Source of the DNA: Bacilli bacterium
Lineage (GTDB): Bacteria > Bacillota_I > Bacilli_A > RF39 > UBA660
DNA: 64,000 nucleotides
Assembly: GCA_017541325.1 (NCBI GenBank)
Contig: JAFXZI010000002.1
Location: 1 to 64,000 of the forward strand
Reading direction: 5' to 3'
The translations under genes and the position numbers were made by a program. Shown here one piece after another: positions 392-60,539 of the stretch (position 1 is its first letter; the number at the start of each line of letters is the position of its first letter). The notes beneath the pieces are model-generated. The model worked only from the letters and a program-made list of their open reading frames with translations, was not told the DNA's origin and made no database searches.

Positions 392-420
392 GAAAAAGAA
401 GATTAGAAATCCTAATCTTC
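392..420 (-). terminator. terminator of the cytosine methylase gene
   Basis: The 9-bp stem 398-406/412-420 contains the methylase stop codon. On the minus strand it is followed by a run of Ts (392-397). It insulates the methylase from the accessory segment to its left. Confidence 0.75.
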
Positions 421-1656
421 CTTTTCAATTATCTTACTTAATTCATTTCCTATACGTTCAATAATTCCTACAACTAAAGCATTACCCATCATAAAGTTTC
501 TTTTCTTATCTGACATACCTGTATTAGTCCAGTTGTCTGGGAAACAATTTATTCTTTCACATTCAATTGGAGTTAATAATCTAATCTTCTTAGTTTTATA
601 ATCTTCAACTATATGAGTAGTTCTACTTATTCCACCCTCGCTAGTTAACATTGTTCTAGCAGGAGCCTCTAAGTTATCAGGACATGGCATGGCACCTTCA
701 GTATAAAAATATTCTTCTCCATTTGGTTTAACCCTTGGAATTCTTTTATTTCCTTTTAAATATTCAAACTTTTTATAAGCTTCATCACTCAAGAAGAACT
801 TTTGATCAACTTCTTCATGTTGAATAATTTTCTTTAATGGAAAAACTTCATTACAATCGGCTGATACTTTTGAAGTATATACTTTACCATTTATCATAAT
901 TCCAGCATTATAAAATTGTGCCTTAAACTTATCACTTACTTCAACTAAATCTTTAAACGAATCTTTTGATAAATTAGTTGTATTAAACTCTAATTCAATA
1001 TCTTTAATTGGAAATTGTTTAACAAACATTCCCTCTTTAAAAATTATATCTTTAGGATTACTTTTTGATAATGATTTATAATACTCTGTAGATTTATGAT
1101 ATGCAAAGATAAATACTCTTCTTCGTTTTTGTGGTAATCCATATTCTCCGGCATTTATAACTCTCCATTGAACAGCATAACCATTATCCATAAAGCTTCT
1201 TAAAATAATACCAAAATCTCGTCCTCGTTGTTTAGCAGGAGATAATAATAATCTATCAACATTTTCTAAAAGTACAAATGGTGGTTTCTTAGCTTTTAAT
1301 ATATCATTGATTGCCCACCATAAAACTCCTTTTTTTCCTTCAATACCTTTACTATTTGAAAGAGTTTGTGCAACAGAATAATCTTGACATGGAAATCCAC
1401 CAACTAAAAGTGTATGGTTTGGAATCTTCTTTTTATCAACTTGGAATATATCAACATTACTAGCATCTTTATCTCCAAATCTTTTAACATAACAATCAAA
1501 TGCTTCTTGAGTTTTTGTAGCAGGTTCCCATTGATTAGCCCATACAAATTTCCAATTACCATTTTCTTTTACTTTATCTTTAATAAGTTCTACTTTGTTT
1601 AAGCCGCATCTAAATCCACCAACACCAGCAAATAACTCTACTACAGTTTTTTCCAT
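412..1656 (-). CDS. DNA (cytosine-5) methyltransferase, Sau3AI type (probable GATC specificity)
   Basis: It transfers a methyl group from S-adenosylmethionine to C5 of cytosine and protects DNA from the divergent nuclease. Residues near 5-14 carry the SAM-binding ELFAGVGGF motif. GGFPCQDYS near 87-95 holds the catalytic Cys of PCQ, ENVDRLL follows near 131, and the QKRRRVF motif comes later. The C-terminal GNALVV motif is present. I chose ATG 1656 over the upstream in-frame ATG 1677 because AGGAGGT sits just upstream of it. The length of 414 is close to M.Sau3AI (about 412). Specificity is inferred from the Sau3AI/MutH-like partner. Confidence 0.92.
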   Translation of the reverse strand: MEKTVVELFAGVGGFRCGLNKVELIKDKVKENGNWKFVWANQWEPATKTQEAFDCYVKRFGDKDASNVDIFQVDKKKIPNHTLLVGGFPCQDYSVAQTLSNSKGIEGKKGVLWWAINDILKAKKPPFVLLENVDRLLLSPAKQRGRDFGIILRSFMDNGYAVQWRVINAGEYGLPQKRRRVFIFAYHKSTEYYKSLSKSNPKDIIFKEGMFVKQFPIKDIELEFNTTNLSKDSFKDLVEVSDKFKAQFYNAGIMINGKVYTSKVSADCNEVFPLKKIIQHEEVDQKFFLSDEAYKKFEYLKGNKRIPRVKPNGEEYFYTEGAMPCPDNLEAPARTMLTSEGGISRTTHIVEDYKTKKIRLLTPIECERINCFPDNWTNTGMSDKKRNFMMGNALVVGIIERIGNELSKIIEKED

Positions 1657-1697
1657 GATTTTTCTACCTCCTGACATTGTCTAAATCCCCTAAATAT

Positions 1698-1726
1698 ATT
1701 ATAATATATTTGATTGAAAAGATCAA
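1698..1726 (-). promoter_or_regulatory. methylase promoter P1 with GATC inside the -35 box
   Basis: On the minus strand TTGATC (1726-1721), a 17-bp spacer and TATAAT (1703-1698) form a near-consensus promoter about 40 bp upstream of the methylase start. The predicted recognition site of the encoded methylase lies in the -35 hexamer. Confidence 0.75.
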
Positions 1727-1729
1727 CTT

Positions 1730-1758
1730 TTGACCTATATTATTATATAATATTAAAT
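1730..1758 (+). promoter_or_regulatory. possible promoter of the restriction gene
   Basis: TTGACC 1730-1735, a 17-bp spacer and TTAAAT 1753-1758 point towards the nuclease gene. This promoter overlaps methylase promoter P2, so the two could compete. The -10 is weak. Confidence 0.4.
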
Positions 1759-1770
1759 TAAAAAGATCAA
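1742..1770 (-). promoter_or_regulatory. methylase promoter P2, a 44-bp repeat of P1
   Basis: TTGATC (1770-1765), a 17-bp spacer and TATAAT (1747-1742) repeat the P1 architecture exactly 44 bp away. The flanks also match (AAAAGATCAAC in both), so this looks like an imperfect tandem duplication of the promoter. Confidence 0.7.
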
Positions 1771-1829
1771 CCTTATACTTATATTTTAAACTAATTTTTA
1801 AATTAAAACAAGATCGAAAGGAGAATTTT

Positions 1830-3218
1830 ATGAAAAAAGGTAGATTATACAACAGACAAGAAATAGAAATTATTTCTAAATCAGCAATTGGTAAATCAAT
1901 AAATGATATTTTAAATGAAGAAGTAATTACGATAGAAGATAAAAGTTTTCCAAATAAAGGTGGATTAGGACAAATGGTTGAACAATTTCTATTTGGTATT
2001 CAAACAAATAGTGATTCAGAACCAGACTTTATGCCAGCAGGTATAGAACTAAAAGTTACACCTTATAAAAAGATTAAAGGCGGTAAATTATCAGCTAAAG
2101 AAAGATTAGTTTTAAATATTATTGATTTTATGACTGAATATAAAAATGAATTTAAATCTAGTCACTTCTGGTTTAAAAATAATACTATTCAACTATTATG
2201 GTATTTATGGGAACCAAATAAAGATAGCAAAGATTTAAAAATAACTCATGAAAAATTGTTAGAGTTAGCAAAAAATGAAGATTTAAAACAAATAGAAGAA
2301 GATTGGAACTTCATTATTAATAAAATTAAAGAAGGAAAAGCTCATGAAATATCAGAAGCTGATACAATGTATTTAGGAGCTTGTTCTAAAGGAGCAAATG
2401 CTAGTTCAGTAAGACAACAGCCTTTTAGTGATATTCCTGCTATGCAAAGAGCATTTTGCTTTAAAAATTCATATATGACTCAATTAGTTAGAAAATATAT
2501 TGGGGATTATTCTGATGTAGAAAAGGTATTAAAGAATACAACTGATTCATTTAATGAATATATTAATGATGTTATTAACAAATATAAAGGTAAAACTCAA
2601 AAAGAGTTAATGAAAGAATTTGATATAGATTCTAAAGCTAAAAATATTAATAGTATGCTTATTAGTAGAATGTTTAATGTTAAAAGTAAATTAGCAGATA
2701 CTGAAGAATTTCAAAAAGCTAATATCATTCCTAAAACAATTAGGATTGAGGAAAATGGAAGAATTAAAGAATCTATTTCATTCCCAGCATTTAAGTTTAA
2801 TGAAATAATCGAACAAGATTGGGAAAACTGTGATTTAAGAGAAGAATTAGAAACAACTAAATATATGTTCTTTGTATTTAAAATGGAAAAAGGAGAATAT
2901 GTATTTAAAGGTATTAAATTATGGAATATGCCAGAAATTGATATTGAAACATCAGTAATGGAAATGTGGAAGAAAACATATAATACTATCAAATCAGGTA
3001 ATATTGTTAGATATATCAAAGATGGTAAAAGAAAAACTAACTTTGTTGGAATGAGTGAGAATGAAGTTTGCCATGTTAGGCCTCATGGAAGAGATTCTAG
3101 AGATACATTTGAATTACCAGTAGCTGATAAATTAACAGGTGCTACTGAATATACTAAACAATGTTTCTGGATTAATAATAGCTACATAATTGAAATTTTT
3201 AAAGAATTTATAAACTAG
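1830..3218 (+). CDS. type II restriction endonuclease, Sau3AI/MutH family
   Basis: It cleaves unmethylated DNA, by family analogy at GATC. The MutH/Sau3AI catalytic pattern D-x6-E-x-K is present as Asp66, Glu73 and Lys75 (around GIELKVT), with spacing identical to the MutH D70-E77-K79 triad. The length of 462 resembles Sau3AI (about 489), which has a catalytic N-terminal and a regulatory C-terminal half of the same fold. The start is ATG 1830 behind AAAGGAG. A GATC site at 1812-1815 touches the ribosome site, and another spans the stop codon (3218-3221). The gene is divergent from the methylase, so expression of the two can be timed separately. Confidence 0.9.
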   Translation: MKKGRLYNRQEIEIISKSAIGKSINDILNEEVITIEDKSFPNKGGLGQMVEQFLFGIQTNSDSEPDFMPAGIELKVTPYKKIKGGKLSAKERLVLNIIDFMTEYKNEFKSSHFWFKNNTIQLLWYLWEPNKDSKDLKITHEKLLELAKNEDLKQIEEDWNFIINKIKEGKAHEISEADTMYLGACSKGANASSVRQQPFSDIPAMQRAFCFKNSYMTQLVRKYIGDYSDVEKVLKNTTDSFNEYINDVINKYKGKTQKELMKEFDIDSKAKNINSMLISRMFNVKSKLADTEEFQKANIIPKTIRIEENGRIKESISFPAFKFNEIIEQDWENCDLREELETTKYMFFVFKMEKGEYVFKGIKLWNMPEIDIETSVMEMWKKTYNTIKSGNIVRYIKDGKRKTNFVGMSENEVCHVRPHGRDSRDTFELPVADKLTGATEYTKQCFWINNSYIIEIFKEFIN

Positions 3219-10133: not shown

Positions 10134-11162
10134 ATGATAAAATTTATTCAATATGGTTGTGGAAAGATGAGTAAGTACACAATTAAATTTGCAGTAGAAT
10201 GTGGAATGAAACTAGTAGGTGCAGTTGATGTTAATCCTAAAGTAATTGGTACTACTATAGAAGGAGTTACAGTTTCTCCTAAAGAAGATTTTGTAAATCT
10301 TTTAAAAGAAAAAAATCCTGATATAGTAATAGTAACTACTATGTCATTAATGTCTGATATTGAAGAAGTCTTTACAATTTGTGCTGAGAATGGAGTAAAT
10401 GCAATTACTACATGTGAAGAAGCATTCTACCCAATGGTTTCTAATCCAAAAATTACTGAAAAATTAGATAGACTAGCTAAAGAGCATAACTGTACTTTAA
10501 CAGGATCTGGATATCAAGATGCTTTTTGGGGTAATTTAATTACTACTCTTGCTGGAGCAACTCATGATATTACAAAAATAAAAGGATCTTCTTCATATAA
10601 TGTTGAAGATTATGGAATTGCTTTAGCAGAAGTACATGGTGCTGGTATGTCTTTAGAAGAATTTGATGAGAAAATAGCAGCAGCTGATAAGATTTCTAAG
10701 GAAGAGAGACAAGCTCTTATTGATGGTGGTACTTATACTCCATCTTATATGTGGAATGTTGTACCTTGGATTGCTGAAAAACTAGGACTTCATTTGAGTG
10801 ATATGACTCAAGTATGTGTACCAATTACACATGATGAAGATATTGAATCATCTACTCTTGGTATGACTGTTAAAAAAGGTATGGCTACTGGTATGAGTGC
10901 TGTAGTAACAGGAGAAACTAAAGAGGGAGTAGTAATTGAAGCAGAATGTATTGGTAAAGTATATCCAAAAGGAGAAGTAGATAAAAATGATTGGACAGTA
11001 TATGGTAGTCCAAATACAAGACTTCTTATTACTGAACCAGATACAGTTCAACTTACTTGTGCAACAATAGTAAATAGAATACCAGATGTTATTAATTCTG
11101 AAGCAGGATATGTACCAACATGTCGTATGGGGGAATTAAAAAATTTAAGAAAAACAATTTAA
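10134..11162 (+). CDS. 2,4-diaminopentanoate dehydrogenase-like oxidoreductase
   Basis: An NAD(P)-dependent enzyme of the dihydrodipicolinate-reductase-like group. Its best known member oxidises 2,4-diaminopentanoate in clostridial ornithine fermentation. The N-terminus reads IQYGCGKMSKY in place of the GxGxxG Rossmann loop, followed by GAVDVNPKVIG. The central segment GSGYQDAFWGNL and C-terminal VNRIPDVINSEAGYVP are typical of the family. The length of 342 fits. None of the other ornithine-fermentation genes are in this window, so the substrate here may differ. Confidence 0.78.
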   Translation: MIKFIQYGCGKMSKYTIKFAVECGMKLVGAVDVNPKVIGTTIEGVTVSPKEDFVNLLKEKNPDIVIVTTMSLMSDIEEVFTICAENGVNAITTCEEAFYPMVSNPKITEKLDRLAKEHNCTLTGSGYQDAFWGNLITTLAGATHDITKIKGSSSYNVEDYGIALAEVHGAGMSLEEFDEKIAAADKISKEERQALIDGGTYTPSYMWNVVPWIAEKLGLHLSDMTQVCVPITHDEDIESSTLGMTVKKGMATGMSAVVTGETKEGVVIEAECIGKVYPKGEVDKNDWTVYGSPNTRLLITEPDTVQLTCATIVNRIPDVINSEAGYVPTCRMGELKNLRKTI

Positions 11163-11256: not shown

Positions 11257-11279
11257 AATTATTAGTAATGAGGGATAAT

Positions 11280-12791
11280 ATGTATAATGTAATTGATTAT
11301 TTAGAAAATTCAACAAAAAAACACAAAAATAAAATAGCAGTAATAGAAGAAGATAAAAAATTAACTTATAGTGAGTTAGCATCATTTAGTAAAAGTGTTG
11401 GTACTTTTATTGCTTCAAAGGGACTATTTAATGAACCAATAATGATTTTTATGGAAAAAGGAATTGATACTTTAATAGCGTTCTTTGGTTCTGTTTATGC
11501 TGGATGTTGTTATTCACTTATTAATCCGGATTTTCCAGAGACTAGAATTACTCAAATTAAAGATGTCCTAAATTCTAGATTTATTATTACTGATGAAGAT
11601 CATTATGAACTTGCTAAAGAATATTTTAGTGCTAAAAATGTATATGTAATTACTGATTTAAAAAATACTAAAATAGATAATAAACTATTAGATTCCGTAA
11701 AAAATAAACATATAGATTATGATCCTTTATATATAAACTTTACTTCAGGATCTACTGGAGTTCCTAAAGGAGTTGCTATATGTCATAGATCAGTTATAGA
11801 TTTTATTGATAAATTTACTGAGATATTTAATTTTAATGATAAAGATATTATAGCTAATCAAGCACCTTTTGATTTTGATGTTTCAGTAAAAGATATATAT
11901 TCATCTATTAAAGTTGGAGCTACTTTATTAATAGTACCAACAAGATATTTTTCTAATCCATCTATCTTACTTGATTACTTATGCGATAATAATACTACAA
12001 CTATGACTTGGGCAGTATCTGCATTATGTCTAATTACAACATTCCATGGATTAGATTATAAAGTTCCAACTAAAGTTAATAAGATATTATTTAGTGGAGA
12101 AGTAATGCCTATTAAACATTTAAATATTTGGATGGATCATTTACCTAAAACAATGTTTGTTAATTTATATGGTCCAACTGAAATAACTTGTAATTGTACT
12201 TATCATATAATTGATAGAAAAAGAGATTATAATGATAAGATTCCTATGGGATATGCATTTCCAAATGAAAGAGTATTCTTATTAGATGAAAATAATAAAG
12301 AAGTAACAGAAAAAAATGTTACCGCAGAAGTATGTGTATCTGGTAGTTGTAATGCTCTTGGATACTATAATAATAAAGAACAAACTGCAAAAGCATTTAC
12401 TTTAAATCCAAGTATTAATGCTTATAATGAAGTAATATATCATACAGGAGATTTAGCATATTATAATGAATTAGGTGAATTTGTATTTAATGGTAGAAAA
12501 GATTTCCAAATTAAATATTTAGGTCATAGAATTGAGCTTGAAGAAGTAGATAAATCTATTATGAAATGTGAAAAAGTAATTAGATGTGCAACTTTCTTTG
12601 ATGAAGAAAAGTCTAAATTATATGCATATTATTCTGGAGATATAGATAAAAAAGAATTAGTTATCAAATTAAAAGAATTAATACCTGCATATATGATACC
12701 TACAAAGTTAATTCAAATAGATAATTTTCCATTAACTAAAAATGGAAAAATTGATAGAAAAAAACTTATGAGTATGTATAAGGAGAAATAA
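11280..12791 (+). CDS. dltA: DltA-like amino acid adenylating enzyme (carrier protein ligase)
   Basis: It activates an amino acid with ATP and loads it on the small carrier protein encoded two genes downstream. AMP-binding signatures are seen: TSGSTGVPKGV near 157-167, NLYGPTEIT near 293-301, the YHTGDLAY core and the C-terminal PLTKNGKIDRKKL with its catalytic Lys. The length of 503 fits DltA. ATG 11280 is preferred over 11268 because GAGGG lies in front of it. In Bacillus DltA the motif FCGEVLP holds a cysteine linked to D-alanine selectivity. Here it is LFSGEVMP, so the substrate may not be D-alanine. Confidence 0.85.
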   Translation: MYNVIDYLENSTKKHKNKIAVIEEDKKLTYSELASFSKSVGTFIASKGLFNEPIMIFMEKGIDTLIAFFGSVYAGCCYSLINPDFPETRITQIKDVLNSRFIITDEDHYELAKEYFSAKNVYVITDLKNTKIDNKLLDSVKNKHIDYDPLYINFTSGSTGVPKGVAICHRSVIDFIDKFTEIFNFNDKDIIANQAPFDFDVSVKDIYSSIKVGATLLIVPTRYFSNPSILLDYLCDNNTTTMTWAVSALCLITTFHGLDYKVPTKVNKILFSGEVMPIKHLNIWMDHLPKTMFVNLYGPTEITCNCTYHIIDRKRDYNDKIPMGYAFPNERVFLLDENNKEVTEKNVTAEVCVSGSCNALGYYNNKEQTAKAFTLNPSINAYNEVIYHTGDLAYYNELGEFVFNGRKDFQIKYLGHRIELEEVDKSIMKCEKVIRCATFFDEEKSKLYAYYSGDIDKKELVIKLKELIPAYMIPTKLIQIDNFPLTKNGKIDRKKLMSMYKEK

Positions 12792-12792
12792 T

Positions 12793-13956
12793 ATGAATTA
12801 TGATGAGATAATAAAAAAATATAAAACACCTTTATATATTTATAATGTAGATAAATTATTAAAGAGAATTGAGTATTTAAAATCTATATTTAGTACATCT
12901 AAACTTGTATATGCTATTAAAGCTAATTCTTTTATTGTAAAAGAAATAGAAGATAGTATAGATAAGTACGAAATATGTTCAATAGGTGAATTTGATATAT
13001 GTAATAAATTAAATATTGATTATAATAAAATGGTAATTTCCGGAGTTAATAAAGATAAAGACTTTATTGAAAGATTAATTTCTAATTATGAAATAAATAG
13101 ATATACTATTGAATCATTAGAACAATACAAAATATTAGATGATTTAAGTAAAAAGTATAATAAAAAGATAAATGTAATAGTAAGACTTACATCATTAAAT
13201 CAATTTGGTGTGAGTGAAGAAGATTTTAAATATATTATTAATAATCATAATAAAGAATTAATGAATATAGAAGGCCTTGAATACTTTTCTGGTACTCAAA
13301 AACATTCTATTAAAAGAATAAATAAAGAAGTAGATTATATAAATGAATTTATAGATGTTTTATTAAATGAATGTAATTTTAAAATAAAAGAAGTAGAATA
13401 TGGACCAGGACTTCCTATAATGTACTATCAAACAGATGAATTTGATGAAGAATTATTCTTAAAAGAAGTTAATAATAGTCTAAGTAGACTAAATTGTGAA
13501 GAGGTGCTTATTGAATCAGGAAGAAGTATAGTAGCTGATTGTGGTGAATACTTAACTACTGTCGTTGATTTAAAAAGTAATAAGACTGGAAATTATGCTA
13601 TTGTAGATGGTGGAATTCATCAATTAGTTTATTATGGTTCAACACTTGCTATGAAAATTCCACATTTTAGATTATTAAATAATAAAGAAAAAAAGACTGA
13701 TAATTATAATATATATGGATCGTTATGTACAATTAACGACGTACTTATGAAAAATGTAGATTTGCCAAAATTATCAATTGGAGATGTTTTTGTTTTTGAA
13801 AAAGTTGGAGCATATTCTTCAACTGAAGGTATTTCATTATTTTTAAGTAGAGATTTACCTAAAATTGTTTTATATAAGAATTGTAATTGTATATTAGTTC
13901 GTGATAGAATAGAAACGAGCAATGTAAATTATCCTGATTATGGGTGTGAGGAGTGA
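12793..13956 (+). CDS. BtrK-like fold-III PLP decarboxylase in the dlt-like operon
   Basis: An alanine-racemase-fold PLP enzyme of the ornithine/diaminopimelate decarboxylase group. Lys43 in YAIKANS is the cofactor lysine. ESGRS, VDGGIH, a GTQ segment, GSLCTINDVL (Cys and Asp of the decarboxylase active site) and GAYS follow in family order. ESGR in place of EPGR, and VDGGxH followed by GxLCTxxD, match what I recall of BtrK, which decarboxylates glutamate bound to carrier protein BtrI in butirosin synthesis. It lies between the ligase and carrier genes, 1 bp after the first, which suggests action on the carrier-bound amino acid. A free amino acid substrate is the alternative. Confidence 0.8.
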   Translation: MNYDEIIKKYKTPLYIYNVDKLLKRIEYLKSIFSTSKLVYAIKANSFIVKEIEDSIDKYEICSIGEFDICNKLNIDYNKMVISGVNKDKDFIERLISNYEINRYTIESLEQYKILDDLSKKYNKKINVIVRLTSLNQFGVSEEDFKYIINNHNKELMNIEGLEYFSGTQKHSIKRINKEVDYINEFIDVLLNECNFKIKEVEYGPGLPIMYYQTDEFDEELFLKEVNNSLSRLNCEEVLIESGRSIVADCGEYLTTVVDLKSNKTGNYAIVDGGIHQLVYYGSTLAMKIPHFRLLNNKEKKTDNYNIYGSLCTINDVLMKNVDLPKLSIGDVFVFEKVGAYSSTEGISLFLSRDLPKIVLYKNCNCILVRDRIETSNVNYPDYGCEE

Positions 13957-13961
13957 GTGAG

Positions 13962-14189
13962 ATGGACGATTTAATTGAAATATTAGAAAATTTAGAACCT
14001 GATGTAGATTATAAGAAAACAGAGAACCTAATTGATGGTAGATATTTGGATTCTTTAAAAATTTTATCATTAGTAAGCGAAATAGAAGATACTTTTGATG
14101 TAGAAATACCAACTGTTGAAATTATTCCTGATAATTTTAATTCTGCAAAAAAAATGTGGGCATTAATAGAAAAATTAAAAGAGGAATAA
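13962..14189 (+). CDS. dltC: DltC-like carrier protein
   Basis: A 75-residue acidic helical carrier protein. It carries the aminoacyl group on a phosphopantetheine arm attached to Ser in GRYLDSLKIL (near residue 33). ATG 13962 is chosen over the in-frame GTG 13953, because GAGGAG (13948-13953) lies eight bases before the ATG. The gene starts 5 bp after the stop of the decarboxylase gene, indicating coupled translation. Arming would be done by the AcpS encoded opposite the end of the operon. Confidence 0.88.
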   Translation: MDDLIEILENLEPDVDYKKTENLIDGRYLDSLKILSLVSEIEDTFDVEIPTVEIIPDNFNSAKKMWALIEKLKEE

Positions 14190-14192
14190 TTA

Positions 14193-15767
14193 ATGTCATA
14201 TTTTAAAAATGCTTATATATTAGGCCTTTTACCTATTGTTTGCCTAATATATAATCTTATACCTAAAAAAAGGTATCTTTTTTTATTGCTCGTAAACTTC
14301 GCTATATATTTTTATCTAGTTAATTTTAGAGTAGTCTTTCTTTTAGTGTCAATTTTATCTATTTATTTTTGTGGCTTATCGCTAAATAAAATTGATAGTA
14401 AAAAAGAGAAACTATTAAAGAAATCTAAAGAAGATAAAAAACTAATTGAGAAAAAAATAAAAAATGATAAAAAACTTATATTACTATTCTGTATTTTATT
14501 AAATGTTTCATTTTTAATAGTATTTAAATATTTAAGTTTCTTTACTATTAATATTAACCATTTATTAGATTTCCTACATATAAATTATAGTGTTGGTACA
14601 GCTAAGTTTTTAGGACCACTTGGAATATCATTTTATACTTTATCAGCGTTGTCTTATATTTTAGATGTATATAATGGCAAGATAGTTGCGGATAAATCTT
14701 TTGTTAAAGTAGCACTATTCTTATCATTCTTCCCTCAAATTACTGAAGGACCAATTGCTAGATTTAGTGATACTGCTGATAGTTTATATGAAGGAAAGAA
14801 AATAACTAATCAAAGTTTTGTATTAGGATATCAAAGAATATTATTTGGTTTATTTAAATATAAATTATTTGTTCCTAGATTAAACTTAATTGTTAGCAAA
14901 GTATTTTTAGACTATACAAATTATAGTGGATTTGGAATATTCTTAGGTGCTTTAGCATATACAGTTATGCTTTATATGGAATTCTCTGGAACTATGGATA
15001 TAGTTATAGGTAGTGGACAAATATTTGGAGTTAAAATACCTGAAAACTTTCGACAACCATTCTTTTCTAAAAATATATCTGAGTTTTGGACAAGATGGCA
15101 CATTAGTTTAGGTTTATGGTTTAAAGATTATATTTACTATCCAATTTGTTTATCTAAACCATTGAAGAAATTAACTAAAAAAACAAGAAAACTATTAGGT
15201 AATCAATATGGACCTTTAATTAGTGGGTCAATAGCGTTATTTGTAGTTTGGTTCTTAAATGGTTTATGGCATGGTGCAGGATATACCTTCTTGTTCTTTG
15301 GACTATATCATTTTGTTATGATAGCTGGAGGAAATTTTATAACTCCACTTGTAGTATTTATTTGTAAGAAGTTACATATTAATAGAGAAAATATTATATA
15401 TAGAATTTTACAAACTTTAAAAATGTGTTTATTCGTAATTATAGGAGAACTATTCTTTAGAGTAGATACTTTATCTAATGGATTTGCGATGGTCCATAAA
15501 ATCTTTACTAATTTCGTAATTAGTGGTTCTGAAATGTTAAGATTTGGATTAAGTATTCAAGATTATGTTGTAATGATTATTTCATTAATATTTATATTTA
15601 TAATGAGTATACTAAGAGAGAAAAATATAGATGTAAGAGAAAAACTATCTACAAAGAAAACTTATGTTAGATGGATAATTATGTATGTATTTATATTAAT
15701 TATTATTATATTTGGGGCATATGGTACTGGTTATGAACCAATAGATCCAATATATGCAGATTTTTAG
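14193..15767 (+). CDS. dltB: MBOAT acyltransferase, DltB-like
   Basis: A multi-pass membrane O-acyltransferase that moves the carrier-bound group across the membrane. FWTRWHISLGLWFKDYIYYP near 303-322 and NGLWHGAGYTFLFFGLYH near 350-367 carry the MBOAT signature, including the catalytic His of WHG. At 524 residues it is about 100 longer than typical DltB. The excess is mostly near the N-terminus, where a Lys-rich cytoplasmic loop (about 66-95) separates membrane segments. It could equally be compared with AlgI/PatA-type MBOATs. It starts 3 bp after dltC. Confidence 0.85.
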   Translation: MSYFKNAYILGLLPIVCLIYNLIPKKRYLFLLLVNFAIYFYLVNFRVVFLLVSILSIYFCGLSLNKIDSKKEKLLKKSKEDKKLIEKKIKNDKKLILLFCILLNVSFLIVFKYLSFFTININHLLDFLHINYSVGTAKFLGPLGISFYTLSALSYILDVYNGKIVADKSFVKVALFLSFFPQITEGPIARFSDTADSLYEGKKITNQSFVLGYQRILFGLFKYKLFVPRLNLIVSKVFLDYTNYSGFGIFLGALAYTVMLYMEFSGTMDIVIGSGQIFGVKIPENFRQPFFSKNISEFWTRWHISLGLWFKDYIYYPICLSKPLKKLTKKTRKLLGNQYGPLISGSIALFVVWFLNGLWHGAGYTFLFFGLYHFVMIAGGNFITPLVVFICKKLHINRENIIYRILQTLKMCLFVIIGELFFRVDTLSNGFAMVHKIFTNFVISGSEMLRFGLSIQDYVVMIISLIFIFIMSILREKNIDVREKLSTKKTYVRWIIMYVFILIIIIFGAYGTGYEPIDPIYADF

Positions 15768-15779
15768 GAGGCAGAGATT

Positions 15780-16727
15780 ATGAAAAAAATAATTGGACCA
15801 TTTGCATTTCTTATAATTTTAGGTCTCTTAGTAGAATTATCAATATTTATATTTATTCCAAACAAAAAAAATCTATTTGATTTTGGAATGTATAATATAA
15901 GTAAATATGATATTTTAAATGAAAAAAATGATTCTATAGATGTAATATTTTTAGGAGATAGTTTAATCTATAATAGTATTTCTCCAATGTATCTTTGGAA
16001 TAAATATGGATTTACTAGTTATGATTGTGCTAGTCCTGCTACAACTATTGAAGAAATGTATAAATATTCTGAAGTAATTGTAAAAAGTCAAAAACCAAAA
16101 TTAGTTATGTTAGAAGCTGATGTATTATTTAGAGTTGCTCCTAAAACTGAAGGTTTTTTTGAAAAAACTAAAGAAGATATTTCTAATAAAGTATATTATG
16201 TAAAAAAATTATTTCCTTTAGCTAAATATCATAATAATTGGAAACAAATTGGTAAAAAAGAAATGACAGAAGGGCTTAAAGGGTTTAGATATACTGTTAG
16301 AGTAGAAAAGTCAGACAAAGGAATTAATCAAAAAGAAACTAAAGCAGTAGCATCTATTAATAAAGAGAACTATGATTACTTTATAAAACTTTTAAATTTA
16401 TATAGAAAAAATGATATTGAATTTATGTTTATAGAAAATCCAACAGTAAGATTTAGATACGATAGACATAATAGGATAAAAGATATTGCAACTAAAAATA
16501 ATATAGAAGTATTGAACCTAAATCTTATTGATTTGGGTATAGATTGGGCACATGATACCAAAGATGGTGGAGTTCATATGAATTATTATGGTTCTAAAAA
16601 AGTATCAAATTATGTTGGAAAATACATAATGGATAAAAAAATAGTTAAAGATCATAGAAAAGATCCTAACTATTCATCTTGGCATGATGCATATAAACAA
16701 TATCAAACTTTAACACTATATGAATAG
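15780..16727 (+). CDS. dltD: DltD-like SGNH-type protein
   Basis: 315 residues with an N-terminal membrane anchor (about 5-25) and an extracytoplasmic hydrolase-like domain. The nucleophile block VIFLGDSLIYNS lies near 58-69. The C-terminal DGGVHMNYYGSKKV near 262-275 offers the His. Canonical DltD is about 390-420 residues, so this is a short form, similar in size to SGNH partners of AlgI-type MBOATs. It probably completes transfer of the group to a teichoic acid or another surface polymer. It overlaps the end of acpS on the opposite strand by 12 bp. Confidence 0.78.
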   Translation: MKKIIGPFAFLIILGLLVELSIFIFIPNKKNLFDFGMYNISKYDILNEKNDSIDVIFLGDSLIYNSISPMYLWNKYGFTSYDCASPATTIEEMYKYSEVIVKSQKPKLVMLEADVLFRVAPKTEGFFEKTKEDISNKVYYVKKLFPLAKYHNNWKQIGKKEMTEGLKGFRYTVRVEKSDKGINQKETKAVASINKENYDYFIKLLNLYRKNDIEFMFIENPTVRFRYDRHNRIKDIATKNNIEVLNLNLIDLGIDWAHDTKDGGVHMNYYGSKKVSNYVGKYIMDKKIVKDHRKDPNYSSWHDAYKQYQTLTLYE

Positions 16728-17078
16728 AGTACATATTGCGATAGCATATTCTCCATCGTGAGATATTGATAAAGACATATTTTCATGAATATTGGGATAT
16801 GTCTTTTTTAATTCATTGTGAAGAATAATAAAAGGAGCTCTATCATTGTTATGTGATATTTCTATATCAAGTAAGGAATAATCATTTATTCCTTTTTTTA
16901 ATGCTTTTAAAAATGCCTCTTTTGCAGCATAAAGACCAGCGATTGTTTCGCTACAATTATTTGCTTTTTTTATATACTCTAATTCGCTCTCATTAAATAT
17001 TTTTTTCATTAGATTTAAATCATTTTTATATTTATCAAATCTATCAATTTTTACAATATCAATTCCATTACTAATCAT
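16716..17078 (-). CDS. acpS: holo-[acyl-carrier-protein] synthase
   Basis: It attaches 4'-phosphopantetheine from CoA to carrier proteins, here plausibly both fatty-acid ACP and the neighbouring DltC. NGIDIVKIDRF at the N-terminus and AGLYAAKEAFLKAL near 45-58 are the two AcpS signatures, with the metal-binding Asp and Glu. About 120 residues, the normal length. An in-frame GTG at 17087 is a possible alternative start, but neither start has a strong ribosome site. Its 3' end overlaps that of the DltD gene. Confidence 0.92.
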   Translation of the reverse strand: MISNGIDIVKIDRFDKYKNDLNLMKKIFNESELEYIKKANNCSETIAGLYAAKEAFLKALKKGINDYSLLDIEISHNNDRAPFIILHNELKKTYPNIHENMSLSISHDGEYAIAICTLFI

Positions 17079-17094
17079 ATAAATCACTGTAATT

Positions 17095-52850: not shown

Positions 52851-55800
52851 ATGAGAGGTAAATATATAGAGTTTTTAAAAAATTGTAAGATAATAACAGA
52901 ACATTATGAATATCTTGTAAATCTTACAAAAAACCATATATTTGTTGGAGCTACTAATGAATGGATAATCGATAACTTTTATCTTATAGTAGAAACAAAA
53001 AATAATTTAAAGAGAAATTATAAGACTAATAAAAACCTCAAACATTCAATGACTAATGTTAATATGTTCGAAATAATGACTGAAATATTTGAAAAGAACA
53101 ACTATGATATGTCATATAAGTCATTGGTAAGAGAACTTAATGCATATCAACTTAAAAACGGTGTTTATTTAACTTATAGAAACTTAGAAACAATACCTAG
53201 TGTTATAGGTATGATTGTAATAGATAGAATTAAAAAATTATGTGTTGCTAAAAGAGATGAACAAGACGAAAAACAAAAAGTAAGAGATTTAATTAAAGAA
53301 ATAAATGAACGTCGTGAAAATGGAGAAAAAATAGATTTAAAAGATTATATTCAGATAGATGAATCTATAATTAGTAATAGATATTATTTAGGTCAATTAA
53401 ATTCTGAACTTCAAGAATATGGTGATTTAGCTAATGAAGTATTTAAAGATTTAAATGAATTATTAGAGAAAAATAATATTAATATTAAAGAAGTTGCAAA
53501 AAGAGAGAGCCAAGAAAGTATTGAAAACAATATTTTAATATCTAATCTTTTTAATGACTTAAAACTAATAGCAAGAATTGATTCTTTAACTTTAATTAAT
53601 AAAGTAAGTAGAACTGAAAAACTATTAGAAGAGGATTCTATTTATGAAAATATGACTGCTGAGACTAAGCAATTATATAGAGAAGAAATAATCCGAAAGA
53701 GTAAAAAATCTAATGAACTTTCTTATACTGAAAGTTTAATGAAAAGAAGTAAAGAATTAAATAAGCATGTTGGTGAATTATTAATAGAAAGACCTAATTA
53801 TGAATTAAGAAGTAGAGTCTATGTTGCTAGTATTGCTTTATTTACAATTCTAATATCTCTTTTATTATCTTTTTTAATCTTTAAACATATAATATTAGGA
53901 TTTATTTTATTCTTAGTGCCAGTTAGTGAAGTTGTAATTCAAGTTACAAATAAAGTTTTTTTAAGAATATATAGATGTAAGCCACTTCCTAAAATGGATT
54001 ATAGCAAAGGAATACCTAAAGAAAATGCTACTATGATAGTTATTCCTACTATAACTAAAAACACTAAAAAAATTGATGAAATGTTTGAAAATTTAGAAAT
54101 ATATTATTTAGCTAATAAAACAAATAATTTGTACTTCTCACTTTTAGGAGATTGTTTCCAAAATGATGAGGCGTATCATAAAGATGATGAAGTTATTGCA
54201 GAATACGGATTAAATAAATGTAAGGAATTAAACAAGAAATATGGAAAAGACTTATTCTATTTTGTTTATCGTAAGAGAATATATAACAAAAGTGAAGATA
54301 GTTATCTTGGATATGAAAGAAAAAGAGGTGGATTATTACACTTCAATAAACTATTACTTCATACTATGGATGAAGCAGAAAAAGAAAAATACATTTATTG
54401 TGAAAACATATCTAATTTAAAAGCTAATATAAAATATGTAATAACATTAGATGCAGATACAGAATTAATTTTAGGTGCAGCTCAAAAACTAGTTGGATTA
54501 ATGGCACATCCATTAAATAAACCTATTTTAAATAAAAATAAGAATAAAGTTATTGATGGATATGCTATAGTACAACCTAAAATTGGAATAGATATTGAAT
54601 CTACTAATGCTTCTGCTTATTCTCAATTAATCGCAGGAATAGGAGGACTAGATGTTTATTCAAATATAGTTCCTAATCTTTACCAAGATGCTTTTGGTGA
54701 AGGTAGTTTCTGGGGTAAAGGTATATATGATCTAGAAATATATAATAAGGTACTAGAAAATGCATTTCCTGATTTATTAATTTTAAGTCATGACTTAATA
54801 GAATGTGCTTATTTAAGATGTGGATATGCATCAGATATTGAAGTAGTAGACGGTTTCCCTGCTGAGTTCTTAGTTGATACAAATCGTCAACACCGTTGGA
54901 CTAGGGGAGATATTCAAATAATTGGATGGTTAAAGAAAAAGATTCGTAATAAACAAAATAGAGTCATTAAAAACCCTATCTCTTTAATATCTAAATTTAA
55001 AATATTTGATAATGTACGTAGGGTTTTACTTAATCCATCATTATTACTGTTAATCATTTTATCTTTTTATTCAACAAAAGTTTATCCAATGTATACATTA
55101 CTAGTAGTACTTGTAGTTATTACTCTACCAATTATTATTCATATTAGAGAATTCTTAAGCATACAAGCAAAAAGAAGAGGTGGAGTAAAATATTATGAAG
55201 ATCTACTATTTGGTAATTTTGCAGTAATAGCAAGAGTAGTTATTTCATTTATTACTATTCCATATTATGCTTATCTATATTTAGATGCAGCAATTAGAAG
55301 TTTATATCGTATGTTTATTTCTCATAAGAAATTATTAAATTGGACTACTTCTGAAGATGCAGCTAAGATGATGAAAAATGATATTTTAACTTATATTAAG
55401 GCATTTAAATTTAATTATTTAGTTGTATTAGTTTTATTCATTACAACACTATTATTTAAATTTAAATATAAAACTGCAATAATGCTACTTTCTTTATTAT
55501 TTATAGTTGCTCCATATGTAATGTGGTTAGTAAGTAGAAAAAATAAAAAAGAAGAAATTGCATTAAGTGCAAACGATAAGAAAGAACTTGAAAATATTGC
55601 ATATCATACTTGGACTTTCTTTGATGATTTATTAAAACCTGATACTAATTATTTAATACCTGATAATTATCAAGAAAATAGAGAAGAAAAAGTAGATAAT
55701 AAAACTTCTCCTACAGATATTTCTATGTCTATAACTGCAGTTATTTCTGCATATGCTCTTGAATTTATTAATAAGAAAACTGCTTTAGAAAAATTAAATG

Positions 55801-58800
55801 GAATAATTAAGACATTAGAAAAACTAGAAAAATGGAATGGTCATTTATATAACTGGTATCGTATTGATACGCTTGAAAAAATGTATCCAAGTTTTGTCTC
55901 ATCAGTAGATAGTGCTAATCTTGCAATTTCACTTCTTACTCTTGAACAATTTTTAAAAGAGTTAAAAGAAGATGAACTATCTGATAGATGTGAAACATTG
56001 TTTAAAGCTATGGATTATTCTGTATTCTATACTGATGAAGATGTATTTAGTATCGGATATGATACTCAAGAAGATAGATTAACTCCGTTTAATTATAATA
56101 AGTTTGCAAGCGAAAGTAGAATTTTGAGTTTTATTGCAATCGCTAAAGGAGACGTAAAAAGTAAACACTGGTTATGCCTAGATAAAACATTGACTAAATA
56201 TAAAAATCGTAAAGGACTTGTTTCATGGTCTGGAACATCTTTTGAATATTTCATGCCTATGCTTTATATGAAGAGATATAGTAATACTCTTCTTGATGAA
56301 TCATATAATTTTGCATATTTCTGCCAAAAAGAATATATGAAAGAAGTAAATCCAGATTATCCTTGGGGAATATCAGAATCTGCATATGCAGAACTTGATG
56401 ATGCATTAAATTACAAGTATAAAGCTTTTTCAACTCCATACTTAAAAATGATTGAAGATAAAGAACAAAGAGTTGTTTTATCTCCATATTCTAGTGCTCT
56501 TGCTATAGATATTAATCCTAAAGAAGTAACTAAAAACTTAGAACATTTCAAAAAGCTTGATATGTTTGGACAATATGGATTCTATGAATCATATGACTAT
56601 GATAAAGGAGAAAAAGTATTATCATACTTCTCCCACCATCAAGGAATGATTCTTGCATCTATTGCTAATAATTTAAAAAATGAATTATTAAGAAATTATT
56701 TCCATAAAGATGTAAGAGTACAAGCATTTAATATTTTACTTAAAGAAAAAGCTCAAATTAATACAATTATTGATCTTAAGATGTTCGGATATAAGAAATT
56801 TGATTACGAACGTGAAAAAGTTGAAAATGATATTAGAGAATTTTTTGGAATTAATGAAGAACCAGAAATATCAATTTTATCTAATTCTAAATACTCTATA
56901 CTAATTAATGATCGTGGTAATGGATTTAGTAGATATAAAACTATTCAATTAAATAGATATCGTAAAGTAACTAAACAAGATTATGGTAATTTTATCTATA
57001 TTAAAGATTTATCTAATAATAAAGTTTGGTCTAATACATATGCTCCAACTAATGTAGAACCAGATAAATACAATGTTGTATTTGCAACAGACCGTATTAA
57101 ATTTATAAGACGTGATGGAGATATTAGTACTAAAACTGAAATGATTGTAACTGGAGATAAGAATGCTGAAATTAGAAAAGTTTCATTTAAAAATGCTAGT
57201 AATGTAGATAAGACTTTAGAAATTACTTCTTATATGGAACCAATTATTGAAGAAAATGCAGCAGATGTAGCTCATCGTACATTTAACAACTTATTTGTAA
57301 GTAGTTCTTTTGATGAGAATACTAATTCACTTATTATGTGCCGTAAGAATAATACTAGAGGAACAAGACATTATGTAATTGGAAAACTATTTACAACTGG
57401 TGAAGAAAGAGAAGTTACTTATGAAACAGAAAGATCTAATTTCATAGGAAGAAACTTAAATGTTGATCAACCTCTTGCTTTAACTAAGAAAAAATTAACT
57501 AATACAGTTGGATCTAATATTGACCCAGTTATGAGTTTAAGAACAAATATAGTAGTTCCTGCTAATGGATCTAAAACAATATATTATATTTGTGGTTTTG
57601 CTAAATCTAAGAAACAAGTACTTGAGATAGTAAATGAATATAGTTCAAAACTTAGAATTGATGAAGCATTTAAATATGCTACTTTAGCTAATAATATAAG
57701 TACTAGACGTCTTAATATTACTGGACCTAATATGAGAACTTATAATATTATGCTTAATTATCTATATCAAACAAGTAAGAGATTCGTAAAAGATGAAAGA
57801 AAAGCTCTTCTAGGTCTTAATAGTATGAATCAAACTAATTTATGGAAGTTTGGTATTACTGGAGATTTACCTATAATTCTTTTAGATATTAATGAAAGTG
57901 AACATATTTCTTTCCTTGAAGATGTATTAAAAGCATATGAATATTTCAAAACTAAATCTATATTTGTAGATGTAGTAATTATTAATAGAGAAATTGATAA
58001 ATATAAAGGAATTATTAATCATAAAGTAGAACAAGAATTATATCGTATGAATACTTTATATAACTTTAATTCTACTCCTGGTACAGTATATGTACTTGAT
58101 TCTAATGATGTTAATCATGATGAATTAATATTACTAAACATGGTAGCTAGATTAAGATTTAATACTAAAACTGATATTAGTCTTGATGAAAGTATTAAAG
58201 AGTTACAAACAGAAAACAGATTAGCAAATTATCAACCTCAAAAGATTGATCATGGAAAAGAAACAAAAGACTATGAGTCAAAATTAGAATTCTTTAATGG
58301 GTATGGTGGATTCAGCAAAGATGGACGTGAATATGTGATAACTAATCCTAATACACCAACACCATGGTTTAATGTAATTGCTAATAAGAATTTTGGTACT
58401 TTAGTTTCTAATAATGAATGTGGATTTACATATGCATATAATAGCCAAATGTTTAAAATAACTTCTTGGACAAACGATATTGTTCTTAATGATAAAACAG
58501 AAGGAATTAATATAGATGATGTAGTGGTAGACCCATCTCTAGCTCGTCATGGATTTGGTTATTCTGTATTTAATCATAACGGAAGTACATATGAACTAGA
58601 AACTACGCAATTTGTTGCGAAAGAAGATACTATTAAATTCTATCGTTCTAAATTAAAAAATATTACAAAGTCAAAGAAAAAATACAATTTGACTTTCTGG
58701 ATTAATCCGACATTTGGTGCTAATGAAGAAAAATCAAGTCGTTATCTATTAAGTGATTATTATGAAAATTTAAATGCTATTACTATTAGAAATGTTTATA

Positions 58801-60539
58801 GTCCTGATTTTTCACATATAACAGCATTCTTAACTTCTACTTTGCCTATAAAGAGCTATTCAGTAGAAAGAATAGTATATAAGAGTATTAATGTAGAAAT
58901 TGAACTAGAACCAGATGAAGAAAAAGATTTTGCTTTTATGTTGGGTACAGAAATAGGTACTGATAAAGTAAAAGAATTAATTGAAAAATATAGTGGATTA
59001 AAAGAAATAGATAAAGAGTTAAAGTCTGTTAAAGATTATTGGAATAAAGAATTATCAACAGTTATTGTTAAAACTGATGATAAGACTTTTGATAACGTTT
59101 TAAATGGATGGTATAAATATCAAACTTTAGCTTCAAGAATTTATGCACGAGCTGGATTCTATCAAGTAGGTGGAGCTTTTGGTTTCCGTGATCAATTACA
59201 AGATTCAATTAATTTAGTAACAGTTGATCCAGAACTTGCTAAGAATCAAATTCTAAATAATGCAAGACATCAATTTATGGAAGGTGACGTTCTACATTGG
59301 TGGCATGAAAATAACCGCTTAGGTTTAAGAAGTAGATATAAAGATGATTATTTATGGTTAATATATGCTGTTTCAGAATATTGTCGTGTAACAGAAGACT
59401 ATAAAATTCTCGAGGAAAAAGTACCTTTTGTTGCTGGTCAACTATTAGCTGATTTCGAAGCAGAAAGAGGAATGAATTACAGTTATACAAAAGAAGAAGC
59501 AACATTATATGATCACTGTTTAATTGCCTTAAATCTTTCTATGTATAAAATGGGACATAATGGTCTACCTCTAATGGGTGGGGGAGACTGGAATGATGGA
59601 ATGAACAAGATCGGTATTAAAGGAATTGGTACTAGTGTTTGGTTAGGTTTCTTCCAATATGCCATTGTGGAAAGATTTGTTGAACTAACTAAAAAATATG
59701 ATAGTAAAATCGATATTTCTAAATATAAAAAATTTAATGAAAAATTAAAAGAAACACTAAATACAGTTGCTTGGGATGGAGATTATTACTTAAGAGCTTT
59801 CTATGATAATGGAAAGAAATTAGGTTCATTAGAAAACTCTGAATGTAGAATCGATTTAATATCTCAAAGCTTCTCAATTCTTACCGATATTATTCCAAAA
59901 AACAGAATAGATAGTGTTATTGAATCTGTTGAATCTAATTTAGTAGATAGAAAAATAGGTATTATAAAACTTCTAGATCCGCCTTTTGGTAAAACAAAAG
60001 ATATTCCAGGATATATTATGGATTATCCAAAAGGAATAAGAGAAAACGGAGGACAATATACACATGCTGCGTCATGGTATATCATGTCTTTGTTAAAACT
60101 TGGTATGAATGATAGAGCGTTTGATTACTATCAAATGATCAATCCGGTTAATAGAACAATTGCTAAGGAATTTGTAGATGTATATAAGATTGAACCATAT
60201 GTTATCGCAGGAGATATTTATAGCAACTACAATCATCCAGGTAGAGGTGGATGGAGTTGGTATTCTGGAAGTAGTGGATGGTTCTATAATATAGGATTAA
60301 CTAAAATACTTGGATTTACAAAAAGAGGTAATAAGATATCTATTAATCCAGCTACTCCAAAAAGATGGAAGAAATTTGAGTTAGAATATCATTATTTAGA
60401 TACTACTTATAAAATAAAAGTAAATCTAAATTCTGTAAAAGAAAGTATTACTCTAGATGGAGAATTATTAGATAAAAACTTCTTTACTATAAAAAATGAT
60501 AAACGAGTTCATGCAGTAATTATCAATAAGAAAGGATGA
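52851..60539 (+). CDS. NdvB-type cyclic beta-glucan synthase (GT84 + GH94 domains)
   Basis: 2,562 residues, one of the largest genes here. An N-terminal helical region (1-320) and membrane segments near 320-365 lead to a GT84-like glycosyltransferase (about 390-720) with LDADTELILG near 533 and RQHRWTRGD near 681. More membrane segments follow (about 730-900). A glucoamylase-like region covers about 930-1380. GH94 phosphorylase-like parts cover about 1400-2562, with GFRDQLQDS near 2110 and GGDWNDGMN near 2245 holding the catalytic Asp. NdvB/Cgs makes cyclic beta-1,2-glucan. The pgi gene follows by 4 bp. Confidence 0.88.
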   Translation: MRGKYIEFLKNCKIITEHYEYLVNLTKNHIFVGATNEWIIDNFYLIVETKNNLKRNYKTNKNLKHSMTNVNMFEIMTEIFEKNNYDMSYKSLVRELNAYQLKNGVYLTYRNLETIPSVIGMIVIDRIKKLCVAKRDEQDEKQKVRDLIKEINERRENGEKIDLKDYIQIDESIISNRYYLGQLNSELQEYGDLANEVFKDLNELLEKNNINIKEVAKRESQESIENNILISNLFNDLKLIARIDSLTLINKVSRTEKLLEEDSIYENMTAETKQLYREEIIRKSKKSNELSYTESLMKRSKELNKHVGELLIERPNYELRSRVYVASIALFTILISLLLSFLIFKHIILGFILFLVPVSEVVIQVTNKVFLRIYRCKPLPKMDYSKGIPKENATMIVIPTITKNTKKIDEMFENLEIYYLANKTNNLYFSLLGDCFQNDEAYHKDDEVIAEYGLNKCKELNKKYGKDLFYFVYRKRIYNKSEDSYLGYERKRGGLLHFNKLLLHTMDEAEKEKYIYCENISNLKANIKYVITLDADTELILGAAQKLVGLMAHPLNKPILNKNKNKVIDGYAIVQPKIGIDIESTNASAYSQLIAGIGGLDVYSNIVPNLYQDAFGEGSFWGKGIYDLEIYNKVLENAFPDLLILSHDLIECAYLRCGYASDIEVVDGFPAEFLVDTNRQHRWTRGDIQIIGWLKKKIRNKQNRVIKNPISLISKFKIFDNVRRVLLNPSLLLLIILSFYSTKVYPMYTLLVVLVVITLPIIIHIREFLSIQAKRRGGVKYYEDLLFGNFAVIARVVISFITIPYYAYLYLDAAIRSLYRMFISHKKLLNWTTSEDAAKMMKNDILTYIKAFKFNYLVVLVLFITTLLFKFKYKTAIMLLSLLFIVAPYVMWLVSRKNKKEEIALSANDKKELENIAYHTWTFFDDLLKPDTNYLIPDNYQENREEKVDNKTSPTDISMSITAVISAYALEFINKKTALEKLNGIIKTLEKLEKWNGHLYNWYRIDTLEKMYPSFVSSVDSANLAISLLTLEQFLKELKEDELSDRCETLFKAMDYSVFYTDEDVFSIGYDTQEDRLTPFNYNKFASESRILSFIAIAKGDVKSKHWLCLDKTLTKYKNRKGLVSWSGTSFEYFMPMLYMKRYSNTLLDESYNFAYFCQKEYMKEVNPDYPWGISESAYAELDDALNYKYKAFSTPYLKMIEDKEQRVVLSPYSSALAIDINPKEVTKNLEHFKKLDMFGQYGFYESYDYDKGEKVLSYFSHHQGMILASIANNLKNELLRNYFHKDVRVQAFNILLKEKAQINTIIDLKMFGYKKFDYEREKVENDIREFFGINEEPEISILSNSKYSILINDRGNGFSRYKTIQLNRYRKVTKQDYGNFIYIKDLSNNKVWSNTYAPTNVEPDKYNVVFATDRIKFIRRDGDISTKTEMIVTGDKNAEIRKVSFKNASNVDKTLEITSYMEPIIEENAADVAHRTFNNLFVSSSFDENTNSLIMCRKNNTRGTRHYVIGKLFTTGEEREVTYETERSNFIGRNLNVDQPLALTKKKLTNTVGSNIDPVMSLRTNIVVPANGSKTIYYICGFAKSKKQVLEIVNEYSSKLRIDEAFKYATLANNISTRRLNITGPNMRTYNIMLNYLYQTSKRFVKDERKALLGLNSMNQTNLWKFGITGDLPIILLDINESEHISFLEDVLKAYEYFKTKSIFVDVVIINREIDKYKGIINHKVEQELYRMNTLYNFNSTPGTVYVLDSNDVNHDELILLNMVARLRFNTKTDISLDESIKELQTENRLANYQPQKIDHGKETKDYESKLEFFNGYGGFSKDGREYVITNPNTPTPWFNVIANKNFGTLVSNNECGFTYAYNSQMFKITSWTNDIVLNDKTEGINIDDVVVDPSLARHGFGYSVFNHNGSTYELETTQFVAKEDTIKFYRSKLKNITKSKKKYNLTFWINPTFGANEEKSSRYLLSDYYENLNAITIRNVYSPDFSHITAFLTSTLPIKSYSVERIVYKSINVEIELEPDEEKDFAFMLGTEIGTDKVKELIEKYSGLKEIDKELKSVKDYWNKELSTVIVKTDDKTFDNVLNGWYKYQTLASRIYARAGFYQVGGAFGFRDQLQDSINLVTVDPELAKNQILNNARHQFMEGDVLHWWHENNRLGLRSRYKDDYLWLIYAVSEYCRVTEDYKILEEKVPFVAGQLLADFEAERGMNYSYTKEEATLYDHCLIALNLSMYKMGHNGLPLMGGGDWNDGMNKIGIKGIGTSVWLGFFQYAIVERFVELTKKYDSKIDISKYKKFNEKLKETLNTVAWDGDYYLRAFYDNGKKLGSLENSECRIDLISQSFSILTDIIPKNRIDSVIESVESNLVDRKIGIIKLLDPPFGKTKDIPGYIMDYPKGIRENGGQYTHAASWYIMSLLKLGMNDRAFDYYQMINPVNRTIAKEFVDVYKIEPYVIAGDIYSNYNHPGRGGWSWYSGSSGWFYNIGLTKILGFTKRGNKISINPATPKRWKKFELEYHYLDTTYKIKVNLNSVKESITLDGELLDKNFFTIKNDKRVHAVIINKKG

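Follow-up and report, generated by a model that had tools for sequence, protein, structure and literature searches.

The window analyzed here, a stretch of 64,000 nucleotides from a Bacilli bacterium (contig JAFXZI010000002.1 of assembly GCA_017541325.1, the tenth contig of a 97% complete genome of 1.25 Mb on 15 contigs), carries a dlt-like operon that contains a gene for a pyridoxal phosphate (PLP) enzyme. Five open reading frames form a tight array on the forward strand at 11268-16727, and encode, in order, a stand-alone amino-acid adenylation enzyme (A), the fold-III PLP enzyme, a small carrier protein (CP), an MBOAT acyltransferase and a predicted SGNH-fold protein (Table 1). These reading frames confirm the five closely packed dlt-like genes described in an initial annotation, which lie 1-12 bp apart or overlap by a few bases: 1 bp separates A from PLP, 3 bp CP from MBOAT and 12 bp MBOAT from SGNH, and the PLP-CP junction is either a 4-bp overlap or a gap of 5 bp, depending on the CP start codon. 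The probable start of A is the in-frame ATG at 11280, where its relatives begin and where the initial annotation had placed it, and that of CP is the in-frame ATG at 13962, also the start used by relatives. The phosphopantetheine site of CP, S34, is invariant across 20 aligned rows. Convergent with the 3′-end of the operon, and found beside 26 of the 80 related operons described below, lies a gene for an AcpS-type holo-carrier synthase that likely activates the carrier; both this gene and an acyl-shuttle motif in the MBOAT tail had initially been overlooked. Rfam gave no riboswitches, and the number of matches in a promoter scan was not above that in shuffled sequence.

Table 1. Coordinates of the operon and of the convergent AcpS gene in the 64,000-nucleotide window, with the evidence for each assignment.
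Feature	Position	Strand	Evidence
A, stand-alone amino-acid adenylation enzyme	11268-12791	+	DltA model TIGR01734, 298 bits, below the 560-bit cut-off; pocket; own clade
PLP fold-III decarboxylase	12793-13956	+	K43 (PLP-Lys), K170, Y280, C312-T313, E345
CP, small carrier protein	13953-14189	+	PF00550; DltC model 32.6 bits
MBOAT acyltransferase	14193-15767	+	PF03062; WHG histidine; C-terminal motif PIYADF
SGNH-fold membrane-anchored acyltransferase (predicted)	15780-16727	+	AlphaFold/Foldseek; G59-D60-S61, H266, N-terminal helix 2-25
AcpS-type holo-carrier synthase	16716-17087	-	TIGR00516, 74 bits, over cut-off

Scanning one genome per species with a profile yielded 249 relatives of the PLP protein, and the best 80 loci were analyzed. 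The identical gene order A-PLP-CP-MBOAT-SGNH is present in all 75 of these loci that are uncut by contig ends, with median intergenic gaps of -4 to 9 bp. Since this order is kept in 75 of 75 loci even as PLP identity between loci drops to 38%, chance is excluded. The genes flanking the related operons are unrelated to each other. Between the five proteins, distance matrices correlate with r 0.63-0.87 (0.19 or below in shuffles), as expected from shared descent of the five genes. More distant members have MBOAT and SGNH, in either order, upstream of A, PLP and CP, which stay next to each other. The hosts include uncultured Bacilli and Clostridia, Lachnospiraceae, Acetobacterium wieringae, Sharpea azabuensis, Traorella massiliensis and one Streptococcus suis, and 15 of 392 genomes spread across the phylum carry the operon. 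It is a real, conserved system across much of the Firmicutes, which bears out the earlier proposal of a non-standard dlt-like operon with an integral decarboxylase gene.

The best-scoring named ligase models for A are those of DltA. Its clade lies outside DltA, and A is not itself a DltA. We mapped the ten specificity positions by alignment, on sequence only, and obtained the pocket DVKALSLCNK (D204, V205, K208, A249, L274, S276, L300, C308, N309 and K494). D204, V205, K208, S276, C308, N309 and K494 are identical in 81 of 81 operon copies, while positions 249, 274 and 300 show conservative changes only. The canonical DltA pocket, DLMT[FL]CTVAK in S. aureus, L. monocytogenes and E. casseliflavus, differs from it at most positions, with Met where A has K208, and the D-alanine pocket of DltA was not found in A. 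In a second sample, for which the A profile served to collect loci from whole genomes, DVKA[LM]SLCNK was seen in every PLP-positive locus and other pockets in all PLP-less relatives; this pocket tracks the presence of the PLP gene. The tree groups the PLP-linked A enzymes in one clade (96/93), apart from DltA and next to two PLP-less groups, Types B and C.

Type B consists of A-CP-MBOAT operons (L192, L193, L196, L197, L199, L202, L217, L056, L057 and L037) with a pocket resembling SM[SLT]V[LM]ALDIK, in which the Asp that binds the amine is replaced by Ser; this suggests that something other than an ordinary amino acid is the cargo. Type C consists of dlt-like operons (L200, L204, L205, L214, L215 and L218) with a DAKV-type pocket (DAKVAGLGMK), which possibly load glutamate or a similar acid with no decarboxylation. 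Two genomes (G705 and G640) each carry both types.

The PLP protein scores 176 bits against the LysA model TIGR01048 (cut-off 298) and 141 bits against TIGR03099 (cut-off 478). It retains the PLP-binding lysine K43, the catalytic C312 and the tyrosine of the GAY motif (Y341), the latter two in 80 of 80 operon copies. The residue after the catalytic Cys, which is Glu in the typical LysAs compared, is Thr (T313) in all 80, and an Arg common to these LysAs is Tyr (Y280), again in all 80. E345 is invariant in operon copies and absent from 18 comparison sequences, K170 is present in 76 of the 80, and in a more distant copy (L209) Ser replaces the Thr. An identity as LysA was rejected on the grounds of T313 and Y280, the score below cut-off and a separate, true LysA elsewhere in 5 of 20 operon genomes. 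BtrK, SbnH and several enzymes encoded on plasmids next to carriers and ligases also have a Thr in this position; BtrK and SbnH act on conjugated substrates, and the characterized relatives of this CT type cited here are decarboxylases (PMC7857480).

With fold III, the PLP lysine, the Cys and the C-T motif, the protein has the features of BtrK/VinO-type enzymes. The BtrK-type motifs of the initial annotation are present as ESGR, VDGGIH, GSLCTIND and GAYS, but GxLCTxxD also occurs in SbnH and TIGR03099-like enzymes and is not specific to BtrK. A specific kinship with BtrK is unsupported, with profile scores of 144 bits for SbnH, 138 for LysA and 137 for BtrK (within 8 bits) against the Protein Data Bank, intermingled Foldseek matches to the three and a weak clade attachment. 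The name 'BtrK-like' suits the motif, but common descent with BtrK is unproven. The PLP proteins of the operons fall into a single clade (100/99) on a long stem, and in a plasmid collection they were found on no plasmid, with a best match of 28% identity. A CT-type PLP enzyme also lies in a Streptomyces plasmid cluster (L147, 8962-13874) together with AcpS, an AMP ligase, a carrier, ectoine synthase and EctA, which is possibly another carrier-bound decarboxylation pathway.

The MBOAT protein scores 134 bits against the DltB model (cut-off 375) and is about 525 residues long, compared to about 400 for DltB. It ends in P-[IM]-Y-A-x-F, of which the Y..F closes 74 of 75 copies; the first position is mostly Pro, with Phe in some distant members, whose MBOAT proteins end in FVYMQF, FIYAEF or LIYANF. 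The DltX proteins of three canonical operons end in FIYNEF. In Dlt, the acyl group travels from DltB to DltD on the DltX tyrosine, while in PatA the shuttle motif is fused to the MBOAT protein, and its function has been shown for both DltX and PatA (PMC12148441). The match of the MBOAT tail to this shuttle indicates an operon that would be carrier-fed like Dlt and built like PatA. The product of the last gene matched no Pfam or NCBIfam model. Its AlphaFold model, built on 35 homologues, has a predicted SGNH fold at a pLDDT (predicted local distance difference test) of 90, with Foldseek matches that include TesA and the O-acetyltransferase PatB, and its GDS and H-x-N motifs are conserved. The operon has these features of MBOAT-SGNH acylation: the MBOAT histidine (WHG), the shuttle tyrosine, the SGNH catalytic residues and the SGNH fold.

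Taken together, the most probable reading is that the operon encodes a complete pathway of its own, by which a decarboxylated amino acid is attached as an ester to a surface polymer; we infer the catalytic steps, the cargo and the acceptor of this pathway. AcpS would arm the carrier, and A would activate an acidic amino acid and load it, an acidity suggested by the invariant K208, which may bind a substrate carboxylate. Tethered by its side-chain carboxyl, the substrate would then lose its alpha-carboxylate to the PLP enzyme on the carrier, leaving an omega-aminoacyl thioester: beta-alanyl from aspartate or 4-aminobutyryl from glutamate. The MBOAT protein would transfer the acyl group to a tyrosine in its own tail, that of the Y..F motif, and the SGNH protein, by way of its serine, would pass it to hydroxyls of an extramembrane polymer, probably lipoteichoic acid, where the positive ester would replace D-alanine.

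The order of loading and then decarboxylation is suggested because K208, pointing to a second carboxylate on the loaded substrate, would be superfluous for a monocarboxylic cargo, and because the active site is of the conjugate type. Decarboxylation on the carrier, as initially proposed, in our view best accounts for the residues of the pocket and the active site. Thioesters and esters of 4-aminobutyrate tend to cyclise to the lactam, and for this reason we lean slightly to beta-alanine; 4-aminobutyrate, the amine named in the initial annotation, is one candidate among several beside it. Precedents for the chemistry are BtrK, which decarboxylates on glutamyl-BtrI (PMC7857480), VinO, which acts on 3-methylaspartyl-VinL, and FlvN for aspartate (PMC11284099).

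Several observations weigh against this pathway. The pair D204 and K208 also reads as an ordinary glutamate domain that activates the alpha-carboxyl, and if A activated that group, alpha-decarboxylation on the carrier would be impossible. In Streptomyces and Rhizobium, adenylation enzymes are found beside CT-type PLP proteins, but their pockets are unrelated, so the pocket of A lacks a precedent. The PLP clade attaches weakly and does not join BtrK (67/36 at the base, with VinO outside the tree), and no glycan genes that would hint at the acceptor recur beside the 80 related operons. Since D204 and K208 could equally fit conventional alpha-activation, A might load glutamate or aspartate by the alpha-carboxyl and the PLP enzyme might epimerise or edit it on the carrier, so that the cargo would be an acidic amino acid in D- or modified form. 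The likeness to classical glutamate pockets, the occurrence of racemases within fold type III and the Type C relatives, which have a DAK pocket and function with no PLP enzyme, all speak for this, but the decarboxylase C312 and GAY tyrosine are kept in every copy and the characterized CT-type relatives cited here decarboxylate (PMC7857480), and we consider it quite improbable.

An alternative with more conventional chemistry and a similar cargo is that a free amino acid is first converted by the PLP enzyme and that A then activates the product, e.g. 4-aminobutyrate, beta-alanine or lysine. Here the nearest curated model is that of LysA, a free-amino-acid enzyme, and the source genome holds no other LysA, but the LysA residues have been lost throughout (Glu to T313, Arg to Y280), a quarter of the operon genomes retain a true LysA besides, and the invariant K208 is hard to square with a monocarboxylic cargo; this order is unlikely. 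Least plausible, to the point of being very improbable, is an ordinary dlt operon with D-alanine as cargo and a stray lysA-like gene that is incidental. DltA models do score highest among named ligases and the operon genomes mostly lack another DltA, but the PLP gene occurs in every uncut locus, the A pocket is unlike that of DltA and follows the PLP gene, the A clade lies outside DltA, and S. suis SSHP-D carries a canonical DltA as well as the operon.

The source genome encodes two LtaS-like proteins and, in our search, no DltA over cut-off, no other LysA and no other MBOAT protein. No DltA scored over the cut-off (560 bits) in any of the 20 operon genomes, but S. suis SSHP-D has both systems, and replacement of dlt is therefore common rather than universal. 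Given the added decarboxylase, the many gut and rumen Firmicutes that carry the operon probably make and attach to their surface an amino compound other than D-alanine. With slightly better than even confidence, we extend the proposed esterification pathway to a widespread one in which an acid is loaded and decarboxylated on the carrier, beta-alanine or 4-aminobutyrate is esterified to lipoteichoic acid or a similar polymer in place of D-alanine in most hosts, PLP-less operons load other cargoes, and Dlt represents a single branch within a family of systems for surface aminoacylation.

The operon is assembled from known parts and is misannotated by every general model. It shares with Dlt (DltX-A-B-C-D) the adenylation enzyme, small carrier, MBOAT and SGNH proteins, acyl-tyrosine shuttle motif and LtaS-like proteins in the host, but differs in having no DltX gene (the motif being fused to MBOAT), another A pocket and clade, an added PLP decarboxylase and an SGNH protein that DltD models do not recognize. 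The butirosin (BtrJ/BtrI/BtrK) and macrolactam (VinN/VinL/VinO or FlvN) systems likewise combine an adenylation enzyme and stand-alone carrier with a PLP decarboxylase, theirs acting on a carrier-bound acidic amino acid, but they feed antibiotic assembly, where the operon has MBOAT and SGNH proteins and a separate PLP clade. PatA/PatB and other MBOAT-SGNH O-acetylation systems have the shuttle hexapeptide fused to the MBOAT C-terminus and an SGNH partner, but draw on acyl-CoA, whereas the donor of the operon is a carrier protein. The exosortase A-associated TIGR03098/TIGR03099 pair joins AMP ligase and PLP decarboxylase families in one system, but the window proteins lie far under both cut-offs and the operon has an MBOAT-SGNH output. 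We found no description of the operon, or of teichoic acid esters of 4-aminobutyrate or beta-alanine, in the open-access literature, which is weak evidence as subscription journals and bioRxiv were largely uncovered, and the operon is apparently undescribed there.

In textbooks, D-alanylation is how Gram-positive bacteria adjust the charge of their surface and withstand cationic peptides. Another widespread operon, equipped with a decarboxylase, predicts that bacteria of the gut and rumen bear a new type of ester on their surface, would explain positive surface charge in species with no recognisable DltA, and links two separate fields, carrier-bound decarboxylation in antibiotic making and MBOAT-SGNH acylation of the envelope.

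Apart from lineage-specific genes, only AcpS and, in a minority of loci, a two-component system recur as neighbors of the 80 related operons. A histidine kinase paired with a response regulator lies upstream in at least 11 of the 80 loci (L125, L136, L128, L113, L106 and others), which suggests envelope-stress control. In S. suis SSHP-D (L119, 1761-15087), the operon sits near guaA, flanked on one side by a tyrosine recombinase with VanR/VanS-like regulators and on the other by a P-type ATPase, and looks like an acquired island. One copy (L213, in genome G751) seems to be decaying, with interrupted PLP and MBOAT reading frames. Just upstream of the operon in the window (10134-11162, forward strand), and not beside other operons, is a 2,4-diaminopentanoate dehydrogenase-like oxidoreductase (128 bits, cut-off 400). 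Elsewhere in the window, a C5-cytosine methylase lies divergent from a MutH-domain protein at 412-3218, like a small restriction-modification pair, and a protein of 2562 residues with GH94 and glucoamylase-like domains (52851-60539, forward strand), large for a 1.25-Mb genome, resembles cyclic beta-1,2-glucan synthase.

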